Shown here: positions 14,429 through 44,625 of the stretch, piece after piece
How positions within the stretch are numbered: the stretch's first letter is position 1
Layout: each line of letters starts with the position of its first letter
Origin: an uncultured Bacteroidales bacterium
GTDB lineage: Bacteria; Bacteroidota; Bacteroidia; Bacteroidales; WCHB1-69
NCBI GenBank assembly: GCA_900316305.1
Contig: ONCM01000015.1
Location: forward strand, 1-55,638
Direction of reading: 5' to 3'
DNA: 55,638 bases
Program-made: the position numbers and the translations under genes
Notes under the pieces: model-generated
What the model saw: the letters and a program-made list of their open reading frames with translations, nothing else
What the model was told of the DNA's origin: nothing
The model's database searches: none

Positions 14429-14460
14429 CAATAACCTATAACCCATAACCTATAACCATT
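14429..14460 (+). repeat. Heptamer array, ATAACCN family
   Basis: Units ATAACCT, ATAACCC, ATAACCT, ATAACCA. The array ends 4 bp before the ATG of the next gene (14465). Confidence 0.85.
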
Positions 14461-21537: not shown

Positions 21538-21635
21538 AGTTTAAGGTTTAAGGTTTAGGGTTTAGAAGCTTAGGAGCTTAAGAGCTTAGGAGCTTAAGAG
21601 CTTAGGAGTTTAGGAGCTTAGAAGCTTAAGTTCAA
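21538..21635 (-). repeat. Mixed 7- and 8-mer array (GTTTARG then TTAGGAGC)
   Basis: It starts as heptamers (GTTTAAG, GTTTAAG, GTTTAGG) and switches to octamers (TTAGGAGC, TTAAGAGC alternating, about eight copies). The octamer part is the complement of the arrays at 41226 and 44556. Confidence 0.85.
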
Positions 21636-24105: not shown

Positions 24106-25491
24106 TTGGAAACGTTAGATAGAACAAAAGAACTTGAAACTAAAAATATAGGAAGTCTGCTCTGGACCTACGCTTTGCCAGCGGTCATCAGCCAGATTAT
24201 CGCTTCTGTTTATAATATTGTGGACCGCATTTTTATCGGACACGGTGTGGGTGCACTGGCTATCGCCGGTCTGGCCATCACATTTCCGCTGATGAACATC
24301 ATCCACGCATTTGGTTCGCTAATTGGGGTGGGCTCCGCTTCCCGCATGTCCATTGTTTTGGGCAAAAAAGACAAGGAATGGGCTGAGAATATTCTTGGTA
24401 ACAGTATGATTTTCACATTGATACTGGGTGTGATTGTGGTCTCTCTCTGTTATCTCTTCTTGGACAAAATCCTGATGTTGTTCGGTGCCACGCCTGAAAC
24501 GGTGGCCTACGCTCATGAGTACATGATATACATCCTACCAGGTATGTTCTTGATTACCATTGCCTTCAACCTCACCGGTCTGATCCGTGCCTCGGGTTAT
24601 CCGATGAAAGCCATGCTCATCATGGCGGGCGGTGCCATCTTGAACATGATTTTGGATCCCATCTTCATCTTTGCACTGGATATGGGCATCAAAGGGGCGG
24701 CCATCGCTTCCACCATCTCCATCTTCTTGATGGCCTTGGTTTCTGTCCTGCATTTCGTTAACCCCAACTCTTTCATCCACTTCAAGTCACACGCTTGGAA
24801 GCTGAAAGGATACATCTTCAAAAACATCACCCTCATCGGTATGAGTCCGTTCCTGATGAACCTTGCTGCCGCCGGGGTGGTCGGCATCCTGAACTCCCAG
24901 CTGCTGCGCTACGGCGGTGACTACGCCGTGGGCGCTTACGGCATCTGTAATACATACGGTAACTTTTTGGTACTCATGATACTAGGTGTTTGCCAAGGTA
25001 TGCAGCCCATTGCCGGCTACAACTACGGTGCCGGCCACGGAGAACGCCTCAAGCACGTTTATACGCTGACTATGTGGATTTGCGTGGCTATCGGTCTGGT
25101 AGGGAGTGTGATTTCCTGTCTCATCCCGGGTGCGATGATGCGCGTCTTCACCACCGACAGCCATCTGATTGAAATTGGCCGCGTCGCCCTGCGCTACAGC
25201 ATGGTGATGTTCCCGCTCATCGGCTTCACCATCGTCAACTCCAACTTCTTCCAGTCCATCGACAAACCTTGGGTGGCCATCGTCACCAGTTTGTCACGCC
25301 AGGTGATCTTCCTCGTGCCCATGAGCATCCTGATTCCGATGTTGTACGTGAAGATGGGCTTGAACGGTCTGAATGGTGTCTGGATTTCCCTGACCATCTC
25401 CGATGTTCTCGGGGCCACCCTTGCCGCTATTCTGTTGTACACCCAAAGACATGTCTTCTCCATTAATGATGAGGATGAGAGGATAAGATGA
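24106..25491 (+). CDS. MATE-family multidrug/cation exporter
   Basis: A 461-residue inner-membrane transporter with about 12 helices in two similar halves. LLWTYALPAVISQIIASVYNIVDRIFIG and ALAIAGLAITFP form the N-terminal MATE signature. MGIKGAAIASTIS is the mid-protein loop and GYNYGAGHGERLK is the start of the second half. MATE proteins export drugs or metabolites in exchange for sodium ions or protons. The best start is a TTG at 24106; there is no ATG before the first helix. Its stop TGA overlaps an ATG and begins an ATGA ladder leading to the tatD gene. Confidence 0.92.
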   Translation: METLDRTKELETKNIGSLLWTYALPAVISQIIASVYNIVDRIFIGHGVGALAIAGLAITFPLMNIIHAFGSLIGVGSASRMSIVLGKKDKEWAENILGNSMIFTLILGVIVVSLCYLFLDKILMLFGATPETVAYAHEYMIYILPGMFLITIAFNLTGLIRASGYPMKAMLIMAGGAILNMILDPIFIFALDMGIKGAAIASTISIFLMALVSVLHFVNPNSFIHFKSHAWKLKGYIFKNITLIGMSPFLMNLAAAGVVGILNSQLLRYGGDYAVGAYGICNTYGNFLVLMILGVCQGMQPIAGYNYGAGHGERLKHVYTLTMWICVAIGLVGSVISCLIPGAMMRVFTTDSHLIEIGRVALRYSMVMFPLIGFTIVNSNFFQSIDKPWVAIVTSLSRQVIFLVPMSILIPMLYVKMGLNGLNGVWISLTISDVLGATLAAILLYTQRHVFSINDEDERIR

Positions 25492-25527
25492 AACGATGAG
25501 ACGATGAAAAGCGATGAAATTATGATG
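25488..25527 (+). repeat. GATGA ladder between MATE and tatD genes
   Basis: The MATE stop (25489-25491) overlaps an ATG at 25488. ATG AAA CGA TGA runs to 25499, its TGA overlapping the ATG at 25496. ATG AGA CGA TGA runs to 25507, its TGA overlapping the ATG at 25504, the start of the tatD frame. Spacing is 8 bp. Confidence 0.8.
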
Positions 25528-29258: not shown

Positions 29259-29356
29259 GTAGAGACGTTTCCTGAAACGTCTCCGTAGATACGCAATACA
29301 TCATATCTAGAGACGCGATACATCACATCTAGAGACGCGATACATCACGTCTCTAC
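29259..29356. repeat. GTAGAGACG palindrome, expanded composite copy
   Basis: An imperfect palindrome (29259-29283) is followed by a 22-bp direct repeat (unit beginning ATCTAGAGACGCGA, at 29305-29326 and 29327-29348), ending in CGTCTCTAC at 29356. It lies 4 bp from the mutA stop. Confidence 0.75.
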
Positions 29357-41225: not shown

Positions 41226-41309
41226 TTCTAAACTTCTAAACTACTAAACTTTTAAGCTTCTAAGCTTCTAAGCTCCTAAGCTCCTAAGCTTCTTAAACTC
41301 TAAACCATT
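41226..41309 (+). repeat. Octamer array, RCTNCTAA family
   Basis: About nine units of ACTTCTAA, ACTACTAA, GCTTCTAA, GCTCCTAA and similar, between the pyrH stop and the 2TM gene start. It is the same family as at 44556 and, inverted, at 21538. Confidence 0.88.
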
Positions 41310-42211: not shown

Positions 42212-42901
42212 ATGAAACTAATAAATAATCTGTTATCCCTATTTTATCCTCGGTTGTGCGCAGCTTGTGGCGATGCGTTGCAACAGAATGAATCGTGTAT
42301 CTGCTTGAACTGTATGCTGCATCTTCCTGAAACACAATTTCATAAGGAACATTTTAATCCCTTGCGACGAGTGTTCGACGGACGGGTGCCAGTGGAGGAA
42401 GTAACTGCCTTGATGAGCTACAAGAAAGCGAATCACACCCAAAAGATCCTCCACAACCTAAAATATAACGGACAGAAAGAAATCGGGGCAATACTAGGAG
42501 AACATCTTGGGGGACAATTGCTTACGGAAGAGCGCTATCGGGGGATCCAATACATCCTCCCGATTCCGCTGCATCCGAAAAAGTTACGCAAAAGAGGCTA
42601 CAACCAGAGCGAATGGATCGCCATGGGGCTCTCAAAAGGGATGGGCATCCCCTACCTGACAGATGTGCTGGTACGCACGCAATTCACCGAAACGCAGACG
42701 CGGAAAGGCCGTTTCGCACGCTGGCAGAACGTAAAGGAGGTGTTCGAGGTGCAAAACCCTGAGAAAATAGCCTATACACACGTGTTGGTCTGCGACGACG
42801 TGCTCACCACCGGCGCCACCACCGAAGCCGCCATTCGGAAACTGTTGGAGGTGGAGGGCGTGCGGGTCAGCGTAGCGACGTTGGCAGCGACGACACTATG
42901 A
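42212..42901 (+). CDS. comF: ComF-family phosphoribosyltransferase-like protein
   Basis: A 229-residue protein. An N-terminal zinc finger (CAACGD..CICLNC) precedes a phosphoribosyltransferase fold with VPIPLHPKKLRKRGYNQSE-like signature IPLHPKKLRKRGYNQSEWIA and the PRPP loop VLVCDDVLTTGAT. ComF proteins are needed for DNA uptake in competent bacteria and are widespread elsewhere. The start at 42212 places the protein right before FYPRLCAACG. Its stop TGA is the first bases of a TGACCNT heptamer array. Confidence 0.9.
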   Translation: MKLINNLLSLFYPRLCAACGDALQQNESCICLNCMLHLPETQFHKEHFNPLRRVFDGRVPVEEVTALMSYKKANHTQKILHNLKYNGQKEIGAILGEHLGGQLLTEERYRGIQYILPIPLHPKKLRKRGYNQSEWIAMGLSKGMGIPYLTDVLVRTQFTETQTRKGRFARWQNVKEVFEVQNPEKIAYTHVLVCDDVLTTGATTEAAIRKLLEVEGVRVSVATLAATTL

Positions 42902-42972
42902 CCATTGACCTTTGACTGTTGACCTTTGACCATTAACCAACTTCTATAACCAATAACCCATAACCTATAACC
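42899..42972 (+). repeat. Heptamer arrays, TGACCNT followed by ATAACCN
   Basis: TGACCAT, TGACCTT, TGACTGT, TGACCTT, TGACCAT then ATAACCA, ATAACCC, ATAACCT, ATAACCT. It starts with the comF stop codon and ends upstream of the next promoter. Confidence 0.85.
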
Positions 42973-42983
42973 TTTAAAAAGTG

Positions 42984-42991
42984 TATCTTTG
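42984..42991 (+). promoter_or_regulatory. -7 box for the small lipoprotein gene
   Basis: GTGTATCTTTGCCGTATG: the ATG lies 4 bp after the box, so the transcript would be leaderless or nearly so. Confidence 0.65.
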
Positions 42992-42995
42992 CCGT

Positions 42996-43187
42996 ATGAA
43001 AAAGAGACTGACAATTATCACCATTATCTGCGCAATAATTTGTTTATCAACATCTTGCGCAAGAAAAATCAACGGTGCGACCCCACACCGCCGCGACCGC
43101 AACTGCGGATGCGAGAACATTTACCAAAAGCAGATCGAGTGCGATTTGGCGATGACATACGATGAAAGGGGCGATGAAAAACGATGA
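42996..43187 (+). CDS. Small lipoprotein of unknown function
   Basis: A 63-residue product with lipobox LSTSC (Cys at about 22), a basic central stretch (PHRRDRNCGCENIYQ) with the CGC motif I associate with small Bacteroidales lipoproteins, and a C-terminus (DERGDEKR) encoded by GATGA repeat units. It is probably an outer- or inner-membrane-anchored peptide. The start is forced by the -7 box. Its stop codon is in the first rungs of the GATGA ladder. Confidence 0.65.
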   Translation: MKKRLTIITIICAIICLSTSCARKINGATPHRRDRNCGCENIYQKQIECDLAMTYDERGDEKR

Positions 43188-43268
43188 AAAACGATGAAAA
43201 ACGATGAAAAACGATGAAAAACGATGAAAAACGATGAAAAACGATGAATATACGATGAATATACGATG
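43152..43268 (+). repeat. GATGA ladder: 10-bp and 11-bp tandem repeat
   Basis: ATG codons at 43174, 43184, 43194, 43204, 43214, 43224, 43234, 43244, 43255 and 43266 within units ACGATGAAAA (then ATACGATGAAT). Stop codons overlap the starts as ATGA so that a chain 43184 to 43204 to 43224 to 43244 to 43255 to 43266 links the lipoprotein stop to the next gene's ATG. Confidence 0.9.
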
Positions 43269-44006
43269 AAAAAGGTACTGTTATTAGTAGTTTTTGCCAT
43301 CAGTTTGGTGGCTTGTACGGACCGGAATGTGTCGGTCAAAATTTCCGGTGATATCCAAGACGGCGGAAACAAGAAGATCCGACTGGCGCTGATTACCGCC
43401 AATGGCATGGACATCATCGATTCCACGACCATGCACAACGGTCATTTCGAATTCAAACTATCCTCTGAAAATGAGCTGATAAAAGAACGCGAGAACAGTC
43501 CGATGATGTTCCAGCTCTTCCTGACGGAGGAGAACAGTCTGGCAACGATGGCCAAAAAGGGCGAGCATCTCAAAATTACCGCCAACGCAGACGATCTGAC
43601 GCGTACCTACCACGTCAGCGGCGGCGAGGAGGCGGTGCTGATGCAGCAGCTCGACAGCGCTTTGACCGCTTTTGTGATTCCGACCGAAAAACTCTATGAA
43701 ACCTATCAGAAAAATGTGGACAACGACTCGGCGCGGGCCGAAATTGAGGCACAATATGTGGAAATGTTGAAGCATCATCGCGCTTATCTGCAGCAATTTA
43801 TCGACAACCATCCGAACAATATGGCCTGCTACATCGCATTTTACCAAAGTTATAACCGGCGCAATTTCTTCGACCCCTATCTAGATCTGGACGTGCTGAA
43901 GCGGATCAACGCCAACCTGTCAAAGGTCTATCCTGAAAGCGAATACGTGAAGACGATGACGCATGTGGCAGAGATGATGGAGCGGCGGACGCAGGAGAAT
44001 GAATAA
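43266..44006 (+). CDS. DUF4369-type lipoprotein
   Basis: A 246-residue lipoprotein (lipobox SLVAC). Residues about 20-110 resemble the DUF4369 domain that precedes thioredoxin-like domains in Bacteroidetes thiol:disulfide proteins (KISGDIQDGGNKKIRLALI, DSTTMHNGHFEFKL). The remainder is helical (LDSALTAFVIPTEKLYETY, HHRAYLQQFIDNHPNNMACYIAFYQSY), the linker region of such proteins. The C-terminal thioredoxin domain with CxxC is missing, so this is the front half of that family. Its ATG is the last rung of the ladder. Confidence 0.78.
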   Translation: MKKVLLLVVFAISLVACTDRNVSVKISGDIQDGGNKKIRLALITANGMDIIDSTTMHNGHFEFKLSSENELIKERENSPMMFQLFLTEENSLATMAKKGEHLKITANADDLTRTYHVSGGEEAVLMQQLDSALTAFVIPTEKLYETYQKNVDNDSARAEIEAQYVEMLKHHRAYLQQFIDNHPNNMACYIAFYQSYNRRNFFDPYLDLDVLKRINANLSKVYPESEYVKTMTHVAEMMERRTQENE

Positions 44007-44054: not shown

Positions 44055-44561
44055 ATGCAACCCTTAGTCAGTATTATCATGGGCAGCACCTCCGATCTTC
44101 CGGTGATGGAAGCTGCCTTCAAATTCTTTGACAGTCAAGAGATTCCGTTTGAAGTGCTGGCTTTGTCGGCACACCGCACACCCGACGAGGTAGCCGAATA
44201 TGCCAAGAACGCGCACCAGCGCGGCATCAAAGTGATCATCGCCGGCGCTGGCATGGCCGCTCATCTGCCCGGCGTAATTGCCGCCATGACCCCGCTGCCC
44301 GTCATCGGCGTGCCCATCAAGTCCTCCCTCGAAGGTATGGATGCCGCCCTTGCCATGCTGCAGATGCCTCCCGGAATCCCCGTGGCCACCGTCGCCATCA
44401 ACGGCGCCCAGAACGCCGCCATCCTCGCCCTGCAAATGCTCAGCGTCAATAATCCCGAAATGATGGCTAAAGTGGTGACCTTCAAGCAGAACCTCAAGCA
44501 GAAAATCGTCAAGGCCAACGCCGACCTCGCCCAAGTCTCCTACACCTTCAAGACCAACTAA
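44055..44561 (+). CDS. purE: N5-carboxyaminoimidazole ribonucleotide mutase
   Basis: A 168-residue class I PurE that moves the carboxyl of N5-CAIR to give CAIR in purine synthesis. [12 protein letters not shown] is the phosphate-binding motif, [14 protein letters not shown] has the catalytic His, and [25 protein letters not shown] follows. Length is normal. purK is not adjacent. Its last codons blend into an octamer array. Confidence 0.96.
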
Positions 44562-44625
44562 ACTCCTAAACTACTAAGCTCCTAAGCTCCTAAGCTACTA
44601 AACTTCTAAGCTCCTAAACTTTTAA
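44556..44625 (+). repeat. Octamer array, RCTNCTAA family
   Basis: ACTCCTAA, ACTACTAA, GCTCCTAA, GCTCCTAA, GCTACTAA, ACTTCTAA, GCTCCTAA, ACTTTTAA, starting at the purE stop codon and ending 8 bp before the next ATG. Confidence 0.88.

Follow-up and report, generated by a model that had tools for sequence, protein, structure and literature searches.

An array of CGATGAA units that lies between two lipoprotein genes of this uncultured Bacteroidales genome is best explained as one locus of a lineage-restricted minisatellite whose units carry both a stop and a start codon and that has expanded at a tight gene junction. We give this reading a probability of roughly two in three. The ladder of overlapping ATGA sequences in the array looks like a by-product of a genome-wide repeat rather than a dedicated translation device, because the focal array is one of many copies of the family at gene ends. 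Of more interest than the ladder is the CGATGAA family itself, which is lineage-restricted and has a near-invariant core. The analysis started from a stretch of DNA of 55,638 nucleotides, which we call the window.

The explanation that we prefer can be stated as a series of proposed steps. Short tandem repeats of the CGATGAA family would expand at gene ends, perhaps by slippage or by misalignment between cores. Each unit contains an ATGA, whose letters spell a stop and a start in different frames, and because each unit brings both, an array might grow at or even across a gene boundary without fusing the genes. The array would thereby give the upstream gene a new stop and sometimes the downstream gene its start. 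At the focal junction, the genes probably overlapped or nearly touched in the ancestral state, and expansion of the array would have left them 78 nt apart. Step sizes of 10 and 11 bp would then account for the ATGA chain by arithmetic. Selection would presumably ask only for a working stop and a working start, and any residual reinitiation along the chain would be incidental and probably weak.

The local features of the window are collected in Table 1. An earlier note on this DNA had described an unbroken ATGA chain built on a 10-bp period followed by two 11-bp units, and both its coordinates and its units hold when checked on the sequence. The stop of the small gene (43185-43187) overlaps the first ATG of the chain, which then proceeds, as confirmed by script, through five intermediate reading frames that encode MKNDEKR three times and MNIR twice. 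The array begins earlier than the note had placed it, with cores at 43150, 43160, and 43172 inside the small gene, and these first cores encode the tail of its product (MTYDERGDEKR). Chains begun at each of the 11 upstream ATGs of the array all finish at 43266; any core is a valid entry because the final two 11-bp steps merge both 20-bp phases. As a repeat, the array is far beyond chance (tandem-repeat score 172). A search of Rfam covering only positions 42800-43600 of the window returned no family, with one sub-threshold match of 18.6 bits against a gathering threshold of 50. The window also carries a second array of the family, at a junction whose MATE and TatD-like gene names are presumptive, given from the look of the sequence rather than by family search.

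Table 1. Features of the window associated with CGATGAA arrays
Feature	Position	Strand	Details
Small lipoprotein gene, 63 aa	42996..43187	+	Lipobox LSTSC; motif HRRDRNCGC; TGA within the 4th core, tail encoded by the array
CGATGAA array	43150..43270	+	12 cores; core-to-core steps 10, 12, 10 (seven times), 11, 11; TRF period 10, score 172
Chain ORF 1, MKNDEKR	43184..43207	+	Script-checked chain
Chain ORF 2, MKNDEKR	43204..43227	+	Script-checked chain
Chain ORF 3, MKNDEKR	43224..43247	+	Script-checked chain
Chain ORF 4, MNIR	43244..43258	+	Script-checked chain
Chain ORF 5, MNIR	43255..43269	+	Its stop overlaps the ATG at 43266
DUF4369 lipoprotein gene, 246 aa	43266..44006	+	Pfam PF14289, E 1.9e-7; start codon within the last core
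Second CGATGAA-family array	25486..25518	+	4 cores; at a MATE/TatD-like gene junction

The repeat family extends far beyond this junction. Its members consist of the CGATGAA core and 1-7 free bases, the spacer being mostly 3 or 4 nt, which gives units of 8-14 bp. The two-unit pattern CGATGAANNNCGATGAANNND has 127 matches in the genome versus 0 for a reversed control, and three-core matches, with overlapping ones counted, number 530. At least one three-core match is present in 18 of 40 genomes of the genus, this one included, and several others are rich in them (G050 116, G055 72, G021 68, G002 55, and G006 49). Outside the genus, 5 of 291 sampled genomes of the order have 1-9 matches (the order sample held 295 genomes, four of them in the genus). 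There is no signal above background in this set because the reversed control matches more genomes (9/291). For a closer survey, we used 815,761 bases, or about 25% of this genome, drawn from five whole contigs and 40 stretches that had been picked for listed array matches, mostly of 10-bp spacing. Genes were called with a home-made script and at most one mismatch was allowed per core, and 86 arrays were thus delineated. Among the papers listed in literature searches, none described arrays of CGATGAA or a ladder of ATGA sequences.

These arrays favor the ends of genes whose sense they share. In co-directional spacers, 47 arrays are in the sense orientation and 11 in the antisense orientation (one-sided binomial p 1e-6). 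The other placements among the 86 are convergent (16), divergent (9), inside called genes (2), and at a contig end (1). A sense gene lies upstream of 64 arrays; 28 of these overlap the gene end and 17 begin 0-5 nt past the stop (45/64), although 16 of the 64 are convergent and so sense-upstream by construction, and overlap with a stop codon arises partly by definition, since an open reading frame ends at its first in-frame TGA. In comparison, only 1 of 27 gene 3′ ends that face an array from the opposite side overlaps or abuts it. Convergent spacers alone (n = 16) give the same picture, with 11 arrays abutting the stop of the sense gene and one abutting the stop of the opposite gene. The 47:11 bias exists because arrays anchor at gene ends, and it is gone among arrays without stop or start anchoring (12 sense versus 11 antisense). 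In five of the 16 convergent cases, a terminator-like hairpin of the same sense lies no more than 120 nt past the array, whereas one has an opposite-sense hairpin, none has an upstream hairpin, and none of the 47 co-directional arrays is followed by one. These five arrays are probably transcribed as 3′ UTR with no gene for ribosomes beyond them. Thirty loci from relatives (34 arrays: UsDs 21, UaDs 4, UaDa 4, UsDa 3, U?Ds 2) are not counted as independent support because some are duplicates and at least two of them, L103 and L119, belong to this genome. A replication-strand bias was considered and rejected; by inspection, 22 arrays on whole contigs do not track GC skew. As a separate observation, one array (G000:C26:83617-83715, seen in L035-L037) lies within a called reading frame with 21-bp steps, where it encodes repetitive sequence resembling MKNDEKA close to the end of the protein.

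Core and spacer of the family contrast clearly. When neighboring units of equal length are compared, core positions differ by 1.3% in sense-upstream arrays (188 pairs, 48 arrays) and by 0.6% in antisense and divergent arrays (76 pairs, 18 arrays), beside 22-23% at spacer positions. The spacers change more than the cores in 47 of 66 arrays and less than the cores in 4. Between genomes, an array of 23 cores in this genome (L151:4634-4899) corresponds to one of 14 cores in G007 (L094:1501-1653), with cores intact, spacers changed, and flanks 75-90% identical. Under slippage by itself, the core would lose its sequence as fast as the spacer does, so the core is conserved or selected by something. 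Either misalignment needs an intact core, which would produce a neutral survivor effect, or the core might itself be recognized. Step lengths are also restricted, with 10-11 bp accounting for 429 of 546 steps and 9 bp for only one, while 12-bp steps are common. Helical phasing was rejected as the reason for this pattern, since steps of 8 and of 12-14 bp occur and steps of 9 bp hardly do, which leaves no clean rule. The near-invariant core beside free spacers and the near absence of 9-bp steps are left unexplained by the minisatellite expansion that we favor.

It is a minor but real possibility that a lineage-specific factor or copying mechanism reads the 7-bp core and builds arrays or acts at 3′ ends in the mRNA sense, with ladders as a tolerated side effect. 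In a related and unlikely form of this proposal, CGATGAA would either be bound by a factor, as DNA or as RNA, or serve a dedicated copying mechanism as its target, the arrays would be multi-site platforms at 3′ ends, and the ATGA chain would be irrelevant. The expected signature of a recognized core is near-invariance that extends equally to arrays not traversed by ribosomes of an upstream gene, and the cores are indeed nearly invariant in sense and in antisense or divergent arrays alike. Clustering of the steps at 10-11 bp, the hundreds of matches in this genome and the tens to more than 100 in several others of the genus, and the hairpin-followed convergent arrays, which place some copies in 3′ UTRs, are all consistent with such a role. 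However, core-anchored recombination could give the same picture neutrally, and the array definition itself tolerated a single core mismatch at most, although few broken cores escape it (two flanking exact cores at 15-40 nt around the 86 arrays). The factor is hypothetical, and the replacement of one repeat type by another at orthologous gene ends, described below, argues against an essential role. If the core is recognized, then ATGA ladders would be what lets arrays invade gene overlaps.

The reading offered by the earlier note is that the array acts as a serial termination-reinitiation ladder, in which ribosomes hop from ATGA to ATGA through five open reading frames of 4-7 aa and the length and phase of the array set the output of the downstream gene. 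We consider this quite unlikely, even though several observations are compatible with it. The chain is unbroken and can be entered from every upstream ATG of the array, and the RNA at the focal junction has no unusual structure (fold z 0.9). The ATGs of the array have A at -3, which favors initiation in Flavobacterium johnsoniae according to a report on that species (PMC6847099). In E. coli and Haloferax volcanii, coupling is described as tight where overlaps are short and as almost lost at about 20 nt (PMC10666635), and because of this a chain of hops would be the likely route by which any coupling could cross 78 nt. Ribosome loss would nevertheless be expected at each of the five hops. The same Flavobacterium report notes that AUGs near starts are under-represented in Bacteroidetes, for which reason the array, though it offers acceptable start contexts, is likely also a burden.

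To weigh this ladder against the expansion reading, it is useful to consider how often a chain arises without selection. When the spacers of the focal array were placed in random order, a stop-to-start connection formed in 2298 of 5000 null arrays, and when spacers were drawn from the genome sample it formed in 1522 of 5000, so that the focal chain appears in 30-46% of nulls overall. In a pure 10-bp array, the chain hits the last ATG for all odd core numbers tried (3 to 11) and misses it for all even core numbers (2 to 12). Because the nulls and this odd-core arithmetic so often yield a connection, the chain requires no selection. The focal chain was scored from the true stop of the 63-aa gene, which the gene caller had missed.

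The rest of the family gives a similar answer. A called downstream start lies within a core in only 11 of the 86 arrays, in nine of them in the last core, and the other 75 have no such start. The strict chain reaches the in-core start in 4 of the 11 (C26:43765, C61:25486, L149:7279, and the focal array), and in the remaining seven it is lost or overshoots. If reinitiation is allowed from -4 to +12 nt of each stop, then C33:20719 also connects and six of the 11 still fail. In the 82 arrays usable for a shuffle test (those whose last core has an ATG), chains reach the last ATG from a fraction of 0.38 of the cores in real arrays and from 0.38 in spacer-shuffled ones, and among co-directional sense arrays (n = 45) this fraction is 0.40 real versus 0.41 shuffled.

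Counts of steps divisible by three can be read at two levels. By array, they occur in 17 of 64 sense-upstream arrays (12/47 co-directional UsDs, 5/16 convergent UsDa, 0/1 UsD?) and in 5 of 20 antisense or divergent arrays, which is no difference and speaks against the ladder. By step, they are rarer in sense-upstream arrays (29/392) than in antisense or divergent ones (35/142), as a ladder would favor, with 28 of those 35 lying in just two arrays. Mismatches at core positions 1-7 are similarly two-sided; across 632 cores they number 12, 3, 0, 10, 11, 2, and 22. The four ATGA positions together have 23 and the C, G, and last A have 37 over three positions, or about half as many per position within ATGA. 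However, the T and G shared by ATG and TGA (10 and 11 mismatches) are kept no better than the first C (12), and the core is equally invariant in antisense and divergent arrays.

A search of 39 other genomes turned up relatives of the DUF4369 gene (E ≤ 0.001) in 36. Those that are named are Bacteroidales metagenome-assembled genomes, one of them from water-buffalo rumen, and we take two with RUG names to be rumen genomes as well. A Pfam search with the window copy of the small lipoprotein at E 0.001 gave no match. Its family, marked by the HRRDRNCGC motif, comprises proteins of 53-85 aa with a variable tail (window 42996-43187, L045-L066). Of 25 loci examined, the focal one included, 24 have the small gene just before the DUF4369 gene; in the remaining one, G017, it is absent from the 420 nt searched. 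For this comparison, 23 of 30 fetched loci were used, all of the same genus, with seven from other families left out, and in a separate set of five loci L039, L042, and L043, which share junction sequence with L050, L052, and L061, were counted once. Gaps were measured to the start homologous to the first residues of the query; distant alternative in-frame starts exist in G020, G005, and L040, and neighboring ones in G007 and G002.

The two genes are close together in most relatives. The stop-to-start gap is exactly -4 in 6 of 24 loci (G021, G013, G003, G023, G015, and G022), a direct stop/start overlap like that of known termination-reinitiation pairs. It ranges from -11 to +9 nt in 16 of 24 loci, or in 18 of 24 if the upstream in-frame ATGs of G005 and L040 are the starts. 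This close spacing makes coupling plausible, and ordinary coupling of the two lipoprotein genes is thus a plausible common trait of the junction, whereas the ladder is not. The focal gap lies beyond the overlap or separation of about 10 nt expected of a coupled pair, and the focal junction differs from ordinary pairs in having five serial overlaps through tiny reading frames. The three longest gaps, 78 nt (focal), 48 nt (G014), and 38 nt (G010), all contain out-of-frame CGATGA arrays, as do G006 (gap 22) and L040 (gap 24 or 6). Intermediate gaps without an array occur in G007 (21-24), G005 (16 or -11), and G002 (12-15). In G013, G020, and G009, the junction holds unrelated low-complexity filler (ACAATGT- and ATCACTA-like). 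Despite this filler, the stop of the small gene overlaps the next start in G013 and G020 and lies 6 nt before it in G009.

Seven loci of the focal junction bear arrays. The strict chain is kept in four (the focal genome G000, G010, G006, and G021, where the connection is direct and the array forms an in-frame stretch of the small protein) and broken in three (G014 and contigs L040 and L041). A ladder maintained by selection is therefore rejected on both the chain statistics and the orthologous junctions. With respect to the earlier note, the chain and the plausibility of coupling stand, and selection for a ladder does not. The comparison with related genomes and the null model of repeats of the same unit, both of which it had proposed as checks, went against an unbroken serial reinitiation device. 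The alternative that it had named, passive duplication around a start codon, here a start or stop, is the better fit.

That short-read misassembly created the array or set its length is very improbable: the assembly is in 99 contigs and arrays of about 100 bp may approach short-read length, but CGATGA arrays occur at the same junction in other genomes, and two orthologous array pairs are identical (65/65 and 41/41 bases, flanks 90-97% identical).

Short tandem repeats in intergenic DNA are familiar from the STRR heptamers of cyanobacteria and from phase-variable VNTRs, and the CGATGAA arrays resemble both in this respect. A further parallel is TAACTGA, a heptamer that has been described in direct repeats from Beggiatoaceae, from cyanobacteria, and from a few Bacteroidetes (MacGregor 2015, PMC4679880), with a function proposed rather than shown. 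By the same account, TAACTGA repeats are, like CGATGAA, short, stop-bearing, genome-wide, mostly intergenic with some overlapping gene ends, and patchy in distribution. They differ in being direct heptamers of fixed length, whereas CGATGAA is a 7-bp core that alternates with a variable spacer, and in the main genome described there, they mostly precede start codons, whereas CGATGAA arrays mostly follow stops (45/64). Therefore, the CGATGAA arrays fall outside the TAACTGA family in both motif and placement.

TAACTGA doublets also served as a control. They occur in 7 of 40 genomes of the genus (G043, G011, G049, G001, G005, G042, and G054), six of which lack CGATGAA triples altogether while G054 has one, and the ten genomes with at least 17 CGATGAA triples have no TAACTGA doublets. 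This genome has 0 TAACTGA doublets, and the reversed control is not clean, as it matched this genome 17 times, presumably through another heptamer. Among 23 sets, from 20 stretches of G043, G011, G049, and G001 chosen among the matches listed, 8 were co-directional sense (UsDs) and 11 antisense (UaDa), showing no sense bias, and of the 11 sets whose upstream gene is in sense, one lay within 5 nt of that gene's stop. The notion that any stop-bearing repeat is stop-anchored is thereby ruled out, and carrying a stop is insufficient for anchoring because TAACTGA sets are neither stop-anchored nor sense-biased.

MIRUs (mycobacterial interspersed repetitive units) provide another comparison. They are described as lying between co-oriented genes with an internal open reading frame that couples to its neighbor by a -4 overlap (PMC12548453), and their insertion is tolerated because of this coupling. 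The CGATGAA arrays share with them the presence of repeat units between co-oriented genes with stop/start overlap. However, MIRUs appear mobile and insert at start codons according to the same source, whereas the CGATGAA unit measures about 10 bp, seems to have multiplied where it lies, is found mostly after stops, and occurs also without a downstream start. With tandem units of 8-14 bp and an in-core start in only 11 of 86 arrays, the family does not belong to the MIRUs.

The preferred reading, expansion of a stop/start-bearing minisatellite, suggests how such a repeat might spread through gene-dense DNA, even between overlapping genes, without breaking them. The analysis also yields a natural set of junctions of one gene pair, separated by 0, 1, 3, or 5 ATGA hops, which could be used to probe the distance over which ribosomes relay in a phylum without Shine-Dalgarno initiation. 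The contrast between core and spacer is a puzzle about how arrays of this kind arise.

Exchange of repeats at gene ends is not limited to CGATGAA. Four junctions compared between orthologues have a spacer that, together with the last residues or the stop of the gene before it, is made from different repeats in different species, while the body of the protein is conserved. The types that replace one another are AATAGGC, CGATGAA, TTATGAA, TTAGTAG, and ACAATGT. For example, FLRKGIDAYK is followed by GNR*, GNKE*, or GNRE* where the repeat is AATAGGC-like and by AMKIDE* in this genome, where it is CGATGAA. The downstream genes at three of these filler-swapping junctions are presumably lnt, tsaB, and tatD, as named from the look of the sequence rather than by family search. 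The tabulated loci were 10 of 13 for lnt (L172 near a contig end and the partial matches L181 and L182 were left out), 13 of 15 for tsaB (without the weak paralogues L196 and L197; 2 of 14 rows lacked the anchor), and 14 of 15 for tatD (without the weak paralogue L212). The whole contigs sampled (442,868 bp) hold 119 short tandem arrays (period 6-20, at least three copies), of which 77 have period 7 and 16 contain CGATGA. AATAGGN arrays are found in 14 of 40 genomes of the genus.

Other repeats are also abundant in the window. Its intergenic DNA is crowded with degenerate tandem repeats of 7-8 bp (ATAACCT, TTAGGAGC, TTCTAAAC, CTAAACTC, ATTCTAC, and others), as seen at 14431, 21562-21628, 23411, 32280, 34747, 41226-41305, 42944-42977, 44558-44625, and 52967. 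A 22-bp repeat, TAGAGACGCGATACATCACATC, is present at 29286-29352 in three copies with 91% matches. Finally, a longer interspersed element (approximately CTTGAGCAGCCTCGAAGAGGCAA... AACCCCACATAAGCG... GTGTGGGG) recurs in the spacers upstream of tatD and tsaB in G002, G003, G007, G055, and G017 (L198, L199, L201, L202, and L188).
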